Both the position numbers and the translations under genes were made by a program. The notes under the pieces were generated by a model. That model did no database searches, had not been told where the DNA came from, and saw only the letters and a program-made list of their open reading frames with translations. Shown piece by piece: positions 1 to 17,116 of a DNA stretch of 32,206 bases. The first letter of the stretch is position 1. Each line of letters starts with the position of its first letter. The DNA is from Tissierellales bacterium (GTDB taxonomy: Bacteria > Bacillota > Clostridia > Tissierellales > JAOAQY01). Where the stretch lies: the NCBI GenBank assembly GCA_025210965.1, contig JAOAQY010000034.1, positions 1 through 32,206 on the forward strand, given 5' to 3'.

Positions 1-882
1 CCTTCAACAGTAAGAGGAGCTACGTTCGATGCCATTGCATCATCATTCCCTGAATTTGCTACAGCGATGATTGCAGTTCTTATTTATAAAGAGTTTGCAG
101 ATGTTTGTGTACCTACTATAGCAGGTTCTGGTATATTTAACGTATTGCTTATACCAATGGCTAGTATATTAGCGTTCAAAGGCGTATTAGCACTTAAAGT
201 TCAAAAGCAAAATGTTTATAGAGACATGTTTTTCTATTTGTTGTCACTAGTAGTTTTAGGAGTGTCAATGTATACTGGACAATTTAATTTTACAACGGGA
301 TTGTTGTTAGTGGCTGTCTATGTAGGATATATTTTGTTTTTACACAAACAAACTCTTGCGCATAGAAAAAAGTTAGAAGAGCAAGAAGATGACGATGAAG
401 AGGTAGAAGATTTGAGTTATCCTCAAATTATATTTTGGATTGTAGTAACGATGGCAGCTGTTTGGGTTAGTGTAGATGCTATAATTGCATCAACTGGTGT
501 TGTGGCAGAATTCTTGTCTATACCTAAGTTTATTACATCTGTAATAATAATCGCAGCAGCAACTTCTATTCCGGATACATTTTTATCTATAAAATCAGCT
601 AAGCGTGGCGATGCTGATGGAGCTATAGCGAATGCAGTTGGATCAAACATATTTGATATCTGTATATGTTTAGGTTTGCCAATGCTAGTTGCTGGGCAGA
701 GTATACCAGTTTCATTTGCTCAAAATGCAGGGGCGCTTTTCTTCTTAGTAATTTCTATGCTAATAACGGCATGGGTACTTTTAAAAAAATCTGGCGTCAA
801 GAAAAACGATGCATTTGTTATGCTTATGGGATATATAACATTTTTAGTTTACATTGTTGGCATAGCGGTGAAATGGTGGTAA
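1..882 (+). CDS. Ca2+/cation antiporter (CaCA family), 5' end missing
   Basis: This is the C-terminal 293 residues of an inner-membrane Ca2+/cation exchanger; the reading frame is open from base 1, so the start lies outside the window. The first visible residues (GATFDAIASSFPEFATA) are the alpha-1 repeat with its Pro-Glu pair. Several hydrophobic helices follow, then a charged cytoplasmic loop rich in Glu and Asp (about residues 120-142 of the visible part), then the alpha-2 repeat (ATSIPDTFLS, then GSNIFDICICLGLP) and final helices. Two alpha repeats separated by an acidic loop are diagnostic of the superfamily. The alpha-2 repeat has Pro-Asp rather than Pro-Glu, which in animal exchangers is typical of the K+-dependent NCKX type; transport specificity is therefore uncertain. 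It sits directly upstream of three TerD genes, whose family binds Ca2+, so a link to calcium handling is plausible but inferred. Confidence 0.88.
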   Translation, partial: PSTVRGATFDAIASSFPEFATAMIAVLIYKEFADVCVPTIAGSGIFNVLLIPMASILAFKGVLALKVQKQNVYRDMFFYLLSLVVLGVSMYTGQFNFTTGLLLVAVYVGYILFLHKQTLAHRKKLEEQEDDDEEVEDLSYPQIIFWIVVTMAAVWVSVDAIIASTGVVAEFLSIPKFITSVIIIAAATSIPDTFLSIKSAKRGDADGAIANAVGSNIFDICICLGLPMLVAGQSIPVSFAQNAGALFFLVISMLITAWVLLKKSGVKKNDAFVMLMGYITFLVYIVGIAVKWW

Positions 883-979: not shown

Positions 980-1558
980 ATGGCTGTAAGTTTATCAAAA
1001 GGACAAAAAGTAGATTTAACAAAAACTAATCCAGGACTAGAGAAGATAGTTGTAGGCTTAGGATGGGATACAAATAAGTATGATGGTGGAAATGATTTTG
1101 ATTTAGATTCAGCAGCGTTTTTAACAAATGCAACTGGAAAGGTAGCAAGTGACGGAGATTTCGTATTTTATAATAACTTGATGCACGCATCACAATCGGT
1201 TCAGCACTTAGGAGATAATTTAACTGGTGAAGGTGAAGGTGATGATGAGCAGCTTAAAATTGACTTGTCAAAGGTGCCAGGAGATGTTGAAAAGATTTCA
1301 TTTACTGTAACTATTCATGAAGCTGATACTAGAGGTCAGAATTTTGGTCAAATAAGTAATGCTTTTATTAGAGTATTAGATGAAGCTACTAACGAAGAGT
1401 TGATTAGATACGATTTGAGTGAAGATTATAGTATCGAAACGTCAGTAGTAATTGGTGAATTGTACAAACACAATGGTGAATGGAAATTTGCAGCTATCGG
1501 AGCTGGTTTTGAAGGTGGATTAGCTGCACTTTGCAACAATTTTGGAATTAACGTATAA
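980..1558 (+). CDS. TerD family protein 1
   Basis: A 192-residue, full-length TerD domain protein, cytoplasmic, with no signal or membrane segment. TerD proteins are beta-sandwich Ca2+-binding proteins of the tellurite/stress (Ter) systems. The sequence shows the typical start ([13 protein letters not shown]), the GLGWDTN motif, an Asp-rich [10 protein letters not shown] calcium-site strand, the conserved [15 protein letters not shown] loop, and the closing [10 protein letters not shown] segment. It is about 60-70% identical by eye to the next gene, indicating tandem duplication. The ribosome site is poor (AAAGAAACT before ATG), so translation may depend on the short leader frame upstream. 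First of three consecutive terD genes that probably form one transcript. Confidence 0.95.
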
Positions 1559-1611: not shown

Positions 1612-2187
1612 ATGACAATAACATTAGTAAAAGGACAAAAAATTGATTTAACAAAGGACAATAATTTAAAGAAAGCTATCATAGGTTTAGGATGGGATAC
1701 AAATAGATATGATGGTGGAATGGATTTTGATTTAGATGCTTCAGCATTTTTAGTTGATTCGCAAGGAAAGGCACAAAATGAGTTAGATTTTGTTTTTTAT
1801 AATAATTTGACGCATCCTAGTGGTGGCGTTGTTCATACGGGAGATAATAGAACTGGTGAAGGCGAAGGCGATGATGAGCAATTAGTAATTGAATTCGACA
1901 AGGTTCCTGCTCATGTTGATCGTATAGCTATTACTGTAACAATTCATGATGCTGTAGCAAGAAGTCAAAATTTTGGACAAGTTAGCAATGCTTTTGTTAG
2001 AGTAGTTAACGAGGAATCTAATGAAGAAATTTTGAGATACGATTTGACAGAAGAATATTCTGTGGAGACTGCTATGGTAGTTTGTGAACTTTACAGACAT
2101 AATAGTGAGTGGAAATTTAATGCCATAGGAAGTGGATTCCAAGGTGGACTTGCAGCACTTTGTAGAAATTATGGACTAGATGTGTAG
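1612..2187 (+). CDS. TerD family protein 2
   Basis: A 191-residue TerD protein with the same landmarks as its upstream neighbour: [12 protein letters not shown] at the start, [12 protein letters not shown], the [12 protein letters not shown] acidic strand, [15 protein letters not shown] in the middle and [13 protein letters not shown] at the end. All Asp/Glu positions expected for Ca2+ binding are kept. ATG is preceded by a strong AGGAGG site. The likely role is a cytoplasmic Ca2+-dependent stress protein acting with the other two TerD proteins. Paralogues in one operon are usual for Ter loci; nothing here tells the individual jobs of the copies apart. Confidence 0.95.
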
Positions 2188-2213: not shown

Positions 2214-2819
2214 ATGAGTATTAATTTAGTTAAGGGACAAAAAATTGATTTAACAAAGAGCAATGCTGGACTTTCTAGTATTTTAGTCGGTTTAGGTTGG
2301 GATCCGGCAGAGCGAAGTGGCGGAGGAATGCTAGGTGGTTTATTTGGAGGGAAAACAGCACAAGTAGACTGCGATGCATCAGTATTACTACTAGATTCAA
2401 ATAATAAGCTTAGATCGAAGGCTGATTTGATTTATTTTGGAAATCTAAGAAATCAAAATAGTAGCATTATTCATCAAGGAGATAATCTTACTGGAGACGG
2501 TGAGGGCGATGACGAGCAAATATTATTAGATTTAAATAATATTCCACAAGAGATTCAGAAAGCGATATTTGTTGTAAATATATACGATTGTGTAAAGCGA
2601 AAACAAGATTTTGGTATGATAAAAAATGCTTTTATCAGAATTGTTGATGCAACTGGAAATAAAGAACTCTGTAAGTATAATTTAACTGAAAGTTATGCTG
2701 GTAAAACTACGTTGGTGGTTGGTGAAATATATAGACATGGCAGCGAATGGAAATTTGGAGCTATCGGTGAAGGAACTAACGAACCAGGACTTAGAGAAAT
2801 AGTTGCACGTTATCAATAG
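2214..2819 (+). CDS. TerD family protein 3, with glycine-rich insert
   Basis: A 201-residue, more divergent TerD protein. It keeps [20 protein letters not shown], the GDNLTGDGEGDDEQ loop and the final beta strands, but between the Gly-Trp-Asp motif and the acidic strand it carries a short glycine-rich insert (SGGGMLGGLFGGK, about residues 35-47). The acidic strand is changed from DFDLD to QVDCD, so its metal site probably differs from those of copies 1 and 2. Glycine-rich inserts at this place occur in one subset of TerD proteins. It starts 26 bases after the previous stop with an AGGAGG site, and a hairpin terminator follows. Confidence 0.93.
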   Translation: MSINLVKGQKIDLTKSNAGLSSILVGLGWDPAERSGGGMLGGLFGGKTAQVDCDASVLLLDSNNKLRSKADLIYFGNLRNQNSSIIHQGDNLTGDGEGDDEQILLDLNNIPQEIQKAIFVVNIYDCVKRKQDFGMIKNAFIRIVDATGNKELCKYNLTESYAGKTTLVVGEIYRHGSEWKFGAIGEGTNEPGLREIVARYQ

Positions 2820-2843: not shown

Positions 2844-2870
2844 AAACAGCTTCTTAGGAAGCTGTTTTTT
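2844..2870 (+). terminator. Intrinsic terminator after the terD genes
   Basis: AAACAGCTTC, loop TTAG, GAAGCTGTTT make a perfect 10-bp stem followed by a T run ending at 2870. It separates the three terD genes from the biosynthetic genes that begin 21 bases later. As no clear promoter follows it, it may act as a partial terminator that lowers expression of the downstream module. Confidence 0.85.
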
Positions 2871-2891: not shown

Positions 2892-4085
2892 ATGAAGTAC
2901 TTTGGTTATTTAACAGAAGAGCTTAGGTGTGAAATATTCTATAAGCAACCAGAAAGAATTGACTACAATGATAGCGAAATACTGAAATATGCTGTGGGAG
3001 CAGCACTCTATATGCCTGCTACAAGACGAGATTTAGCCGATATAATTATTTCCAAAAAATATCCACAGGTTAGAACTTTAGTTGTATGTTTAGAAGATGC
3101 TATAAAAGATGAAGACGTTGAATATGCTGAACAGAATTTGATAAATCAATTAAATGAAATTAAAGTAGCAGTTGAAAATAGCAAAATAAAAAAGGAAGAA
3201 ATACCGTTTTTATTTATAAGAGTGAGATCACCAAAACATTTTGAAGAACTTTCATCTAAAGTACATATAGTAGAGTCGTTATTAACTGGTTTTGTTTTTC
3301 CAAAATTTGACAGTAAAAGTGGCTTAGAATATGTGAAGGTTTTTAAAAAATTTAATGAAGATACGGCTACTAAACATTATTTTATGCCCATTTTAGAATC
3401 AAGTGATTTAATGTATGTGGAAACTCGACTTGAGACGCTTAATTTTATAAAGAAATTATTGAGTAATTGTAGAGATGATGTTTTAAATATAAGGATTGGA
3501 GCTACAGATTTTTGTTCTTACTTTGGGATAAGACGAGGGAAGGATTATACTGTTTATGAAATCCAATTAGTTAGAGACTGTATAAACGCTATACTTAATT
3601 TGTTTATTAGAAAGGAAGAAAATTACATTGTTTCAGGTACGGTTTGGGAGTATTTTGACAATGACAGGCTTTTAAAGCCGTTACTTAGGGCGACTCCTTT
3701 TCATGAATTTTTTGGAGAACAAGGTCTTGATTTAAGATCGAAACTTATTGAAAATAATTTAGATGGTTTAATAAGAGAGATTTTGAAAGACAAAGAAAAT
3801 GGTATGGTTGGTAAAACTGTTATACATCCATCACATGTTACTATAGTAAACGCACTTTATGCAGTAAATCATGAAGAATATTTAGATGCAATTGCTATAA
3901 TTGGAGAAGATGGTAATGGTGGAGTTTTCAAAAGCGATTATGGAAATAAAATGAATGAAGTTAAGCCACATACGTATTGGGCTAGAAAAATACTTACAAG
4001 GGCTAAAGTTTATGGTGTATTTAATAAGGGGTATGATTATTTATCTATCATATCTCAACTAGGAGGTATGGTTAGTGAAAAATAA
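2892..4085 (+). CDS. Ter-associated CitE-like aldolase/lyase
   Basis: A 397-residue TIM-barrel protein of the HpcH/HpaI/CitE superfamily, matching the Ter-linked C-C bond lyase family. Visible barrel landmarks are VVCLEDAI (strand with acidic metal ligand), FIRVRSPKHF (Arg in the position that binds carboxylate/CoA in relatives), GFVFPKFD, MPILESSDLMY (metal-ligand Glu), IRIGATDFCSYFGIRR and GKTVIHPSHV near the end. Family members cleave or form C-C bonds of acyl or keto acids with Mg2+; the substrate here is unknown. In published Ter loci this enzyme is predicted to join the phosphoribosyltransferases and the HAD enzyme in making a nucleoside-like metabolite. Its end overlaps the next start by 11 bases, so the two are translationally coupled. 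Good GGGGAGG site before ATG. Confidence 0.88.
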   Translation: MKYFGYLTEELRCEIFYKQPERIDYNDSEILKYAVGAALYMPATRRDLADIIISKKYPQVRTLVVCLEDAIKDEDVEYAEQNLINQLNEIKVAVENSKIKKEEIPFLFIRVRSPKHFEELSSKVHIVESLLTGFVFPKFDSKSGLEYVKVFKKFNEDTATKHYFMPILESSDLMYVETRLETLNFIKKLLSNCRDDVLNIRIGATDFCSYFGIRRGKDYTVYEIQLVRDCINAILNLFIRKEENYIVSGTVWEYFDNDRLLKPLLRATPFHEFFGEQGLDLRSKLIENNLDGLIREILKDKENGMVGKTVIHPSHVTIVNALYAVNHEEYLDAIAIIGEDGNGGVFKSDYGNKMNEVKPHTYWARKILTRAKVYGVFNKGYDYLSIISQLGGMVSEK

Positions 4086-6531
4086 TATTGAAAATCATTA
4101 CTCTATAGAACTAAATGTAGAGAGGAATCCATATGAATTAGATATAGATGATTTTTTTAAAATGGCAACTAGATGTAATCCGAAAAGACGTTTTTTGTTT
4201 GTATCTAAGGTGCTTGGAAAACATTTAAGTGTAAATCCAAAAAGAGCATTAGATGTCAGCAGACTTTTAGCTATGCATTATTATGAGTCAAGATTTTCTA
4301 AATTTGCTTTTGATAGAGAAGATCTTATAAATAGAGTTAGGCAAAATGAACATGAAGGAATTATAGATAGGTCAAGAGGATATGAAATTGATGAAGATAC
4401 ATTAGTAATAGGATTTGCAGAGACTGCTACAGGTCTTTCTCACGGCGTTTTTGATGCATTTGAAAATGTTAAGGGCTTTTACCATACTACTAGAGAAAAT
4501 CTAAGACATAGTGGAAATACAATATGTTTCGAAGAAGAACATTCTCATGCTACAGCACACAAAATTTATGAAAATGAAAATTTAAAACTGGATGGTATCA
4601 ATAGAGTCATACTCGTTGATGATGAAATTTCTACAGGTAATACTCTTTTAAATATAATGAAATCAATAAATGAAACTTTCCACATAAAGAATTTTGATAT
4701 TTTAAGTTTACTTGATTGGAGAAAAAAAGAATATAGAGATAAATTTGATTTGTTTTCAAGAGAAAATGAATTAAATGTGTCGGTGTATAGTTTGATAGAT
4801 GGCTATTTTGATAATATAGAAAACGGTGAAATTAATTTAGATGAAATAAAAAAACATGAAATTTTTGATGAGTCAAAGTTAAATAGGGAATTTGAAAAGA
4901 CTAATGAAAAGAATAAATGTGTCTTTGTTGAATCTTTATCAAAAGAAAAAGATGATGAATTATTGGATTTAGGCTCGAAATATATGAGATATACAGGAAG
5001 ATTTGGATTAAATAGAAATACTCACAAACGTGGGAAAAAAATTATGTATGATATATCCAAAAATATTCAGCCCTATGTAAGTGGTAAAACATTAATTCTT
5101 GGAACAGAAGAATTTATATATGTACCTATGTGTATAGCTGATAAATTAGATGGAGAGGTGTACTTTAAGTCAACTACAAGAAGCCCGATCTATCCATATG
5201 AAGGTGGAGATTATCCAATTGAAAATGGAATAGCCCACTATAGCTTATATAATGAAGGTGTAGTAAATTATGTATATAATATTGAGAAAGAAGAATATAA
5301 TACTATACTTATAATGACGGAAGGAGAAGGATTAAGTAAGGCAAATAATTATCTATATAATTGCCTAAAAAAATACTGCGACAATGTTAGAATGTTTTAT
5401 TTTAGTTGCAATAAAAATAATTTAAAAAGCGATCCACCTCAAATGGGAAGCTATGATGAAAAAGATATAGTTTTTTTGCTGAAAAATTTAGGCAATCGCA
5501 TAGAAGAGAAAGATAATAAAACGAGAGAGAAGGCAATACAGTCTGGTGTTCACTATTCGGAAATGTTGCCAATAGAATATAAACCATCTAAAATTTATTT
5601 AGATTTATTTCATGATTCGCTTCGAAAATTTAAATCTAAATTAGCCCTAGCGGTGGGGATTACAGCAGAAAAAATATTGAAGGCTAGAGGGGAAGACGTA
5701 GTTTTGGTATCATTAGCTAGAGCAGGTTCGCCAGCTGGGGTTTTAGTTAAGAGATATATGGAACAAGTCAGAGGAATCAATTGGCCACATTATAGTATAT
5801 CTATTATTAGAGGTCGCGGAATAGACAAAAATGCTATGGAATATATTTTTCAGAGACACCCTAATTCTCAGATTCAATTTTTAGATGGATGGACTGGAAA
5901 AGGTTCAATAACCAAAGAGTTAAAAGAAGCATTATCAGAGATAGACAAAATCTATGGGAAAAGAGAAAATTTAAGCGATGAATTAGCGGTTTTAGCAGAT
6001 CCAGGAGCATGTACAGCTATATATGGAACTCGAGAAGATTTTTTGATTCCAAATGCATGCTTGAATTCAACTATATCAGGGTTATTGAGTAGAACTGTCT
6101 ACAGAGAAGATATGATAGATAAAAATGATTATCATGGTGTGAAATTCTATAGAGAGTTAAAAAATGAAGATTTATCTAATTACTACATTGAAGAGATAGA
6201 ACGTGAATTTGAATCTATTAAAGTTGAAGCTGAAAATGAAGTGAAAGAGTTTGATGTTGATTTGGAAAATGTGAATTGGATTGGTCAGAAAGATGTAAAA
6301 AGAATTGAGAAAGATTTTGAAATAGAGAGTATTCACTTCATTAAACCTGGAATAGGTGAGACTACTAGAGTATTACTTAGAAGAATACCTTGGAAGATTT
6401 TAGTTCGTGAAGATGCAAAGAATATTGAGCATGTAATACAATTGGCTAGAGAAAAAAATATACCAATAGAAACGTATCCATTAGAGGCGTATCAATGTTG
6501 TGGAATAGTAAAGGCGCTGAAGGGAGAGTAA
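4075..6531 (+). CDS. Four-domain Ter protein: PRTase-TRSP-PRTase/StiP-PELOTA fusion
   Basis: An 818-residue cytoplasmic fusion with a GTG start placed 8 bases after AGGAGG. Residues about 5-260 form an orotate-PRTase-like domain with a clear PRPP-binding loop (VILVDDEISTGNT, about 178-190). Residues about 285-460 match the TRSP domain, with its name-giving motif in STTRSPIYP (near 368). Residues about 500-700 match the second PRTase-type domain often labelled StiP (LVSLARAGSPAGVLVKRY, about 544-561; FLDGWTGKGSITKEL). Residues about 735-818 look like a PELOTA-type RNA-binding domain (NWIGQKDVKRIEKDFEIES). In many Ter loci these parts are on two or more proteins; here they are in one chain. Predicted role: ribosyl-transfer steps in a nucleoside-like metabolite pathway. 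The older StiP label 'cysteine protease' is probably misleading. Ends 1 base before the HAD gene. Confidence 0.87.
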   Translation: MKNNIENHYSIELNVERNPYELDIDDFFKMATRCNPKRRFLFVSKVLGKHLSVNPKRALDVSRLLAMHYYESRFSKFAFDREDLINRVRQNEHEGIIDRSRGYEIDEDTLVIGFAETATGLSHGVFDAFENVKGFYHTTRENLRHSGNTICFEEEHSHATAHKIYENENLKLDGINRVILVDDEISTGNTLLNIMKSINETFHIKNFDILSLLDWRKKEYRDKFDLFSRENELNVSVYSLIDGYFDNIENGEINLDEIKKHEIFDESKLNREFEKTNEKNKCVFVESLSKEKDDELLDLGSKYMRYTGRFGLNRNTHKRGKKIMYDISKNIQPYVSGKTLILGTEEFIYVPMCIADKLDGEVYFKSTTRSPIYPYEGGDYPIENGIAHYSLYNEGVVNYVYNIEKEEYNTILIMTEGEGLSKANNYLYNCLKKYCDNVRMFYFSCNKNNLKSDPPQMGSYDEKDIVFLLKNLGNRIEEKDNKTREKAIQSGVHYSEMLPIEYKPSKIYLDLFHDSLRKFKSKLALAVGITAEKILKARGEDVVLVSLARAGSPAGVLVKRYMEQVRGINWPHYSISIIRGRGIDKNAMEYIFQRHPNSQIQFLDGWTGKGSITKELKEALSEIDKIYGKRENLSDELAVLADPGACTAIYGTREDFLIPNACLNSTISGLLSRTVYREDMIDKNDYHGVKFYRELKNEDLSNYYIEEIEREFESIKVEAENEVKEFDVDLENVNWIGQKDVKRIEKDFEIESIHFIKPGIGETTRVLLRRIPWKILVREDAKNIEHVIQLAREKNIPIETYPLEAYQCCGIVKALKGE

Positions 6532-6532
6532 G

Positions 6533-7288
6533 ATGAATATATTTGCAAGTGATTTAGACCAGACGCTTATATACTCAAAGCGCTGGATAGAGAATGAAAA
6601 AAATGTAAAGTGTGTTGAGATATATAAAGATTCGCCACTTTCGTACATGGATTTAGAGGCCATAAGTAATTTAAAGAAAATATTACTAAGAAATAAGTTT
6701 GTACCAATAACTACGAGAACAATTGAGCAATATAATAGAATAAAATTACCAGTAGAGGTTCAAACAGCAGTGGTTGCAAATGGTGGAATAATAATTGAAA
6801 ATGGTGAAATAGATGAGGTTTGGAGTGAAAGAATAAAATCTGAAATATCAGAGAGCTTGCCGTTAAATTTATTCATGGAAAGACTTAACGAACTCGAATC
6901 GGTTGAGGGTGTTTTGAAAATAAGGCAAGCTGAAAATTTATTTGCTTACTTGGTTGTTGAAGAAGAACTATTTGATAGGAAAAATATTAAATATATTATG
7001 GATAAAATTGATGAGATGAAATGGAAATGCTCGGATCAAGGCAGAAAAATATATTTTTTACCTAAAGGACTTAGTAAGGGTGCAGCTCTAAGATATTTGA
7101 GAGAAAAATACAATGCAATAAAAGTAGTTTCAGCAGGGGATTCAAAACTTGATGAATCAATGGATTGTGTATCGGAAGTGTTTATAACTCCAGGGCATTC
7201 AAAACTTGAAAACTATGAAAAAACAAAAGCTAAAGGTGTAGTGAGTGCGGTAGAGATTTTAAAAAGAACTATAGAAGTTTTTGAATAA
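6533..7288 (+). CDS. HAD-superfamily phosphatase of the Ter module
   Basis: A 251-residue HAD hydrolase. Motif I is at the N-terminus (FASDLDQTLIYS, nucleophile Asp7 and acid/base Asp9), motif II is the Thr-rich strand (VPITTRTIEQYNRI), and motif III/IV is GLSKGAALRYL with SAGDSKLDESMD, where Asp residues bind Mg2+. The size and C2-type cap suggest a sucrose-phosphatase/Cof-like phosphatase that dephosphorylates a small sugar-phosphate or nucleotide-like compound. It starts 1 base after the stop of the PRTase fusion and is certainly co-translated with it. It fits the predicted last or an intermediate step of the Ter metabolite pathway. Substrate unknown. Confidence 0.88.
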   Translation: MNIFASDLDQTLIYSKRWIENEKNVKCVEIYKDSPLSYMDLEAISNLKKILLRNKFVPITTRTIEQYNRIKLPVEVQTAVVANGGIIIENGEIDEVWSERIKSEISESLPLNLFMERLNELESVEGVLKIRQAENLFAYLVVEEELFDRKNIKYIMDKIDEMKWKCSDQGRKIYFLPKGLSKGAALRYLREKYNAIKVVSAGDSKLDESMDCVSEVFITPGHSKLENYEKTKAKGVVSAVEILKRTIEVFE

Positions 7289-7301: not shown

Positions 7302-7334
7302 AAAGGCTGTCTCTTTTGCCGGGAGACAGCCTTT
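7302..7334. terminator. Bidirectional terminator between the Ter operon and the PTS-like gene
   Basis: AAAGGCTGTCTC pairs with GAGACAGCCTTT around a short loop, with A and T runs on the two sides. It can end the Ter transcript on the plus strand and the permease transcript on the minus strand. Confidence 0.85.

Positions 7335-15589: not shown

Positions 15590-17116
<1,527 letters not shown>

Follow-up and report, generated by a model that had tools for sequence, protein, structure and literature searches.

Does an 818-residue protein encoded in a ter locus of a Tissierellales bacterium represent a true fusion of two biosynthetic enzymes, and what does such a fusion indicate about the chemistry of the Ter system? 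This system is widespread and is linked to resistance to phages, colicins and tellurite. We analyzed the first 32,206 bases (hereafter, the window) of a contig of 143,966 bases (C34), base 1 of the window being the first base of the contig. The source is a draft genome of 3.6 Mb in 243 contigs (95.8% complete), and it is the sole representative of its family in the genome collection.

The + strand of the window carries, in order, a truncated Na/Ca exchanger gene, three TerD paralogues, a CitE-like lyase gene, the fused gene, a HAD phosphatase gene and a terminator. The CaxA-like exchanger (1..882; PF01699, 1.1e-29) has lost its 5′ end at the contig start, and its reading frame is open through to base 1. 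The TerD paralogues are located at 980..1558, 1612..2187 and 2214..2819 (PF02342, 1.7e-85, 2.8e-83 and 1.1e-73, respectively). A preliminary description of the window was silent on both the exchanger and the TerD genes (980–2819), although they lie directly upstream of the lyase gene on the same strand. The lyase, a C–C bond lyase of the TIM barrel type (2892..4085; PF15617 C-C_Bond_Lyase, 6.9e-122; PDB 3qll citrate lyase, 5.9e-4), overlaps by 11 nt with the fused gene (4075..6531; GTG start), whose Shine–Dalgarno sequence AGGAGGT (4061..4067) lies within the lyase gene. A gap of 1 nt separates the fused gene from that of the HAD phosphatase, which is of the sucrose-6-phosphatase type with the motif DLDQT (6533..7288; PF05116, 6.8e-08; PDB trehalose phosphatase, 5.9e-11), and the operon ends at an intrinsic terminator with a 14-pair stem and a T run (7302..7334). 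The three reading frames that the preliminary description had identified, together with their overlapping or nearly touching arrangement, were thus recovered at the same coordinates. All families of the Ter biosynthetic module, namely the PF15617 lyase, PRTase_2, TRSP, PRTase_1/StiP, PELOTA and HAD, occur together here, with TerD genes in the same operon. A hairpin with a T run, read from the + strand sequence at 2844..2870, separates the TerD genes from the biosynthetic genes as a possible attenuator; a terminator scan returned it in the – strand form only, at chance level. This hairpin perhaps sets a lower level of the enzymes relative to the TerD proteins.

A protein search of the source genome for AIM24, a neighbor gene in the locus of the nearest relative, led to a second contig (C167), the end of which shares 636 aligned columns (97.3% identity) with the start of the window. 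Positions 16315–16950 of L111 and 1–630 of the window differ by a 6-nt indel between the contig ends at this same identity, as if the contig break arose from two strain variants or an assembly bubble. C167 encodes, on the strand opposite to the operon, TelA and a protein with a YceG domain; these are followed by AIM24, a fourth TerD and the full start of the exchanger. This gene order, continued on C34, matches that of the unfused locus of G809 (L090). Together, the two contigs make up an entire ter locus like those of the relatives. By its gene content, the locus is an ordinary Bacillota ter locus with an uncommon but recurrent gene fusion.

Pfam profiles identified four domains in the single chain, all far above the cut-off and in the order previously described: PRTase_2 (residues 28–243, 4156..4803; PF15609, 3.9e-60), TRSP (residues 306–428, 4990..5358; PF12500, 1.7e-33), PRTase_1/StiP (residues 458–708, 5446..6198; PF11202, 1.2e-102) and PELOTA_1 (residues 735–813, 6277..6513; PF15608, 2.4e-31). 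A junction linker (residues 441–457, 5395..5445) connects the second and third domains. The motifs VDDEISTGNT (residues 181–190), TTRSP (residues 367–371) and RAGSPAGV (residues 549–556), which had been read from the sequence earlier, are all present. The structures of the two halves, PRTase_2-TRSP and StiP-PELOTA, were predicted apart, using alignments without plasmid or phage rows; a full-length alignment that combined fused and split proteins misaligned the halves and was discarded.

The PRTase_2-TRSP model (pLDDT 83.8, pTM 0.89) matched APRT (Foldseek, 9.4e-6) and other type I PRTases, and PurR repressors were also among the matches. In the PRPP loop of PRTase_2 (4615..4644), residues D183, E184, T187 and G188 are invariant among 27 sequences, as is an E-H-H set at residues 154–158. 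With this loop and its predicted PRTase fold, PRTase_2 is probably a type I phosphoribosyltransferase. It is weakly similar to a retron III-A PRTase (2.1e-5), and a PADLOC search detected no significant defence system. A comparison of TRSP with PRTase_2 using hhalign aligned 98 columns (79.7%, E = 1.5e-5) with a score of 38.7, compared with at most 17.8 for 40 column shuffles, 17.5 for the reversed profile and at most 19.9 for 10 unrelated families from the same loci. Because of this homology over the controls, a TTR motif common to both domains and the loss of the PRPP loop, whose equivalent stretch is unconserved in the profile alignment, TRSP appears to be a degenerate PRTase-like domain derived as a decayed tandem copy of PRTase_2 rather than an active PRTase. 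Its role is presumably structural or ligand-binding.

The StiP-PELOTA model (pLDDT 81.9, pTM 0.86) had PyrR proteins as its best PDB matches (Foldseek, E = 3.2e-4, probability 1.00), which places StiP among proteins with a predicted PRTase fold. Among 28 diverse StiP proteins, RAG and DGWxGxG are invariant; in the window, these correspond to R, A and G of RAGSPAGV (5719..5742), the presumed PPi loop, and to D, G, W, G and G of DGWTGKG (residues 604–610, 5884..5904), the presumed short PRPP loop. Both motifs lie in the model on strand–loop–helix units whose positions correspond to those of the PPi and PRPP loops in PRTases, and DGWTGKG, preceded by a strand and followed by a helix, is shortened compared with the canonical PRPP loop. 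A profile comparison of PRTase_2 with StiP found no homology, and their kinship is therefore one of fold only. The preliminary description had counted two ribosyl-transfer domains, and this number requires revision: because TRSP is a putative degenerate copy of PRTase_2 and StiP is predicted to be PyrR-like, the chain would contain three PRTase-like domains and one L7Ae-like domain.

The C-terminal PELOTA domain aligned with archaeal L7Ae across the RNA-contact loop, KPGIGETTR (residues 757–765, 6343..6369) being paired with KKGTNETTK, with an E-value that is borderline by sequence (E = 0.007). Snu13/NHP2 proteins were among the matches of the StiP-PELOTA model, below PyrR, and by length they fit the PELOTA part. 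The similarity in sequence and predicted fold across this loop suggests membership of the L7Ae/eL30/pelota fold and renders RNA binding plausible and an RNA-linked step possible. Such a step had been proposed previously from the presence of the domain in the fused chain; the alignment across the RNA-contact loop is consistent with the proposal, but all aligned StiP proteins contain the domain, which is thus uninformative on the fusion in particular.

We then considered whether the 818-residue reading frame is a true fusion. In nearly all relatives, PRTase_2-TRSP (about 370–520 aa) and StiP-PELOTA (about 350–420 aa) are encoded by adjacent, often overlapping genes. The earlier view that the module acts as a unit is supported. 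All 20 unfused relatives examined harbor a Shine–Dalgarno sequence of at least 4 nt upstream of the StiP start. At the window junction, the only nearby methionine is Met457, where no such sequence is found (the match is just 3 nt), and the corresponding stretch in G690 (L087) contains no start codon. Because the ribosome-binding site is lost at the junction and retained in these relatives, the 818-residue gene is, as far as sequence can tell, a true fusion. A search for genomes with the same fusion, as the preliminary description had suggested, found it in one of 29 other StiP genomes from phylum, order and class samples (G690, Bacillota; 826 aa), and a third case on a complete plasmid of Curtobacterium pusillum (pCPAA3, L048; 836 aa, 34% identical). 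Three further candidates chosen by open-frame length (G530, G627 and G228) proved to be unfused: each has a pair of genes that share a frame but are separated by stop codons or a break. In the StiP tree, on which the origins were counted (the PRTase_2 tree being a quick version), the window is sister to the unfused G809 (99/93), and the fused state needs three changes, at least two of which are forced; the fusion therefore appears to have arisen at least twice. Between the final strand of TRSP and the GSY motif of StiP lie 54 nt in the window versus 58 nt in G809, so that a small out-of-frame indel plus loss of a stop codon would be enough to produce the fusion. Its rarity among the sampled StiP genomes indicates that it is dispensable for function. 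Taken together, the sequence comparisons indicate that the fusion is real, recurrent and evolutionarily cheap, and it favors the view that the two proteins act jointly. The argument from the fusion is stronger than originally put, since the same pair of genes, neighbors in nearly all relatives, has been fused at least twice.

The absence of ATP-grasp, TerC and TerB from the window had been regarded as unusual. These genes are indeed missing from it; however, the remainder of the operon lies on the overlapping contig, and the absence of ATP-grasp is the common state among relatives. Because the Pfam ATPgrasp_Ter model was unspecific, matching 13 of 14 control genomes, we replaced it by a search based on aligned genuine Ter ATP-grasp proteins. 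The results for 20 genomes with the module were bimodal: five matched at 1e-147 or better, always inside the ter locus, whereas the best match in the other 15, including the source genome and four single-contig genomes, was 1.4e-12, a level expected of unrelated ATP-grasp enzymes, which indicates that the Ter ATP-grasp is absent from them. Thus, no Ter ATP-grasp gene lies just outside the window or elsewhere in the source genome, and yet the locus is ordinary. Among 38 homologous loci, the lyase, PRTase_2, StiP and HAD form a core that is present in most, whereas the Ter ATP-grasp was found in six and missing in 32; ATP-grasp, TerA, TerB and TerC are optional in ter loci.

The source genome has no TerC, and CaxA occupies its place. 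Across the 38 loci (including window 1–882, L032–L050, L063–L065 and L087–L095), the cation transporter was a P-type ATPase of the Ca type in 14, TerC in eight and a CaxA exchanger in three, with none seen in 13; loci with an identified transporter had exactly one kind each, never two. These counts, which include lineage effects, suggest that the cation exporters paired with TerD are interchangeable. Several loci differ in other ways. G189 (L045, 4369–6556) has a very divergent pair of PRTase_2 and StiP, the latter with about 22% identity, and lacks the lyase and HAD genes; this pair adjoins TerD genes and a P-type ATPase and is possibly a second type of module. On a Brevibacillus megaplasmid (L046, 6848–10404), the lyase, PRTase_2 and StiP occur alone, with no TerD or HAD nearby. 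In G311 (L067, 4446–5876), StiP-PELOTA lies between a chemotaxis receptor and dnaX, with ter genes absent nearby, demonstrating that StiP can exist without PRTase_2; it bears an unrelated 118-aa N-terminal extension, which profile tests did not support as a TRSP remnant. Conversely, G821 (L097, 8213–9367) has a PRTase_2-TRSP gene without an adjoining StiP. Phage ME3 has TerD together with PRTase_2, HAD and StiP (L050/L051 entry; PMC7824862), and an unverified faecal phage scaffold in the same entry contains lyase, PRTase_2, StiP, three TerD genes and a P-type ATPase. In one plasmid collection, 2567 of 72 556 records encode relatives of the fused protein, nearly all as adjacent genes.

Comparative genomics has led to a reading of Ter loci as synthesizing a nucleoside-like signal metabolite by means of PRTases and HAD enzymes (PMC7824862, PMC8115787), and our search of the literature on StiP, TerD and PRTases returned no report of a substrate or product for any Ter biosynthetic enzyme. 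We consider it reasonably probable that the fused protein is a PRPP-dependent enzyme that, with the lyase and the HAD phosphatase, makes a small nucleoside-like stress metabolite in the cytoplasm, by a chemistry that we infer as follows. The CitE-like lyase would supply or trim a carboxylate-bearing carbon unit that serves as the acceptor, and PRTase_2, with its catalytically dead twin TRSP, would move ribose-5-phosphate from PRPP to this acceptor. StiP, as another PRTase whose loop is shortened, would take PRPP or the ribosylated intermediate for a second step, while its L7Ae-like domain would bind RNA or the product, and the HAD enzyme would take off the 5′-phosphate. The TerD proteins, with the cation exporter, might respond to or sense the product. 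The fusion would keep the two PRTase steps equimolar and allow direct hand-over, possibly of a shared intermediate, and an ATP-grasp ligation would be an optional later step that is absent from this lineage. The domain order, the fusion evidence, the fold models, the homology of TRSP and the core gene set support this enzymatic reading; against it, DGWTGKG appears not to be a canonical PRPP loop, the L7Ae match is borderline, and the fusion is rare.

Could the open frame have been created by an error of sequencing or assembly from two genes that in fact overlap? The draft state of the assembly, short A runs at the junction and the out-of-frame difference in spacing from the nearest unfused relative would fit such an error. 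However, a separate StiP gene would then be the only one to lack a Shine–Dalgarno sequence against all 20 relatives with one, and the fusion recurs with a similar short linker in G690 and also on the complete Curtobacterium plasmid, so we regard an artefact as very improbable. The notion that StiP is a cysteine protease, with the fused protein processing itself or TerD proteins, is scarcely credible. It derives from the family names alone (Pfam, NCBI), for which a literature search gave no source, whereas none of the Cys or His residues is invariant among the 28 diverse members, as a conserved catalytic pair would be, and no protease was among the 50 PDB matches listed. Given the predicted PyrR-like PRTase fold and the lack of an invariant Cys or His, the protease name is probably a misnomer.

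The same resemblance to PyrR raises the question of whether the PRTase-like domains are regulators, that is, PyrR- or PurR-like sensors of ligands or RNA, and not enzymes. PyrR is an attenuation regulator, PurR repressors match PRTase_2 and TRSP has lost its PRPP loop; nevertheless, PyrR is also an active UPRTase, PRTase_2 retains its four invariant loop residues and the E-H-H set, and a lyase and a phosphatase constantly accompany these domains, which speaks for a metabolic function. We therefore consider regulation by these domains rather unlikely. It is likewise unlikely that the PRTase domains act on RNA, with PELOTA docking the RNA, StiP or PRTase_2 adding ribosyl-phosphate, as Rit1 does to tRNA, and HAD removing the phosphate. 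The L7Ae-type match across the RNA-contact loop, the structural similarity to Snu13/NHP2 and also to PyrR, which has a PRTase fold and binds RNA, and the constant presence of PELOTA on StiP chains are in keeping with this possibility. However, the substrates of HAD IIB enzymes of this sucrose/trehalose-phosphatase class are small phosphates, it is not obvious what the lyase would do to RNA, and the PELOTA domain has Gly in place of the key Asn of L7Ae. More speculative, and in our judgment improbable, is a PRPP-driven assembly line in one polypeptide, in which a working PRTase would act with TRSP as its inactive twin and with another PRTase whose PRPP loop is minimal to build a stress nucleoside on an RNA carrier, the L7Ae-type domain holding the growing molecule until it is freed by the lyase or phosphatase. 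Synthesis of a small nucleoside-like metabolite by PRPP-dependent enzymes remains our preferred reading.

The assignments of TRSP and StiP and the optional nature of ATP-grasp are useful additions to the description of the module. The natural single chain offers an equimolar enzyme for reconstitution, with the natural 826-aa orthologue as a second candidate. Reading TRSP as an inactive PRTase twin and assigning StiP to the PRTases instead of the proteases would correct the annotation on the plasmids that carry them, and it points assays toward PRPP consumption and toward residues to mutate.

Compared with known proteins, the StiP model is closest in its PRTase fold to PyrR of B. subtilis and B. 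caldolyticus, which is also RNA-binding; however, PyrR has a canonical PRPP loop, lacks a PELOTA domain and shares 15–19% identity with StiP. Over GxxETT[KR] and the next segment, PELOTA can be aligned with archaeal L7Ae, Snu13 and NHP2, but the Asn that contacts the K-turn is replaced by Gly, and PELOTA forms the C-terminal part of a presumed enzyme. At the level of the locus, the window resembles the Ter biosynthetic module defined by Anantharaman, Iyer and Aravind (2012; summaries in PMC7824862 and PMC8115787) in having a CitE-like lyase, PRTase_2-TRSP, PRTase_1/StiP-PELOTA and a HAD phosphatase by TerD genes; it differs in having one fused chain, no ATP-grasp and CaxA in place of TerC. The nearest relative, G809, has the same order of AIM24, a TerD-like gene, CaxA, three TerD genes, lyase, PRT2, StiP and HAD, and its StiP is 65% identical to that of the window, but PRT2-TRSP and StiP-PELOTA are two genes there. 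The closest counterparts in architecture are the proteins of G690 and Curtobacterium pCPAA3, both of which combine the four domains in the identical order in a single chain. The StiP tree places neither of them as sister to the window, and G690 has a P-type ATPase where the window has CaxA.
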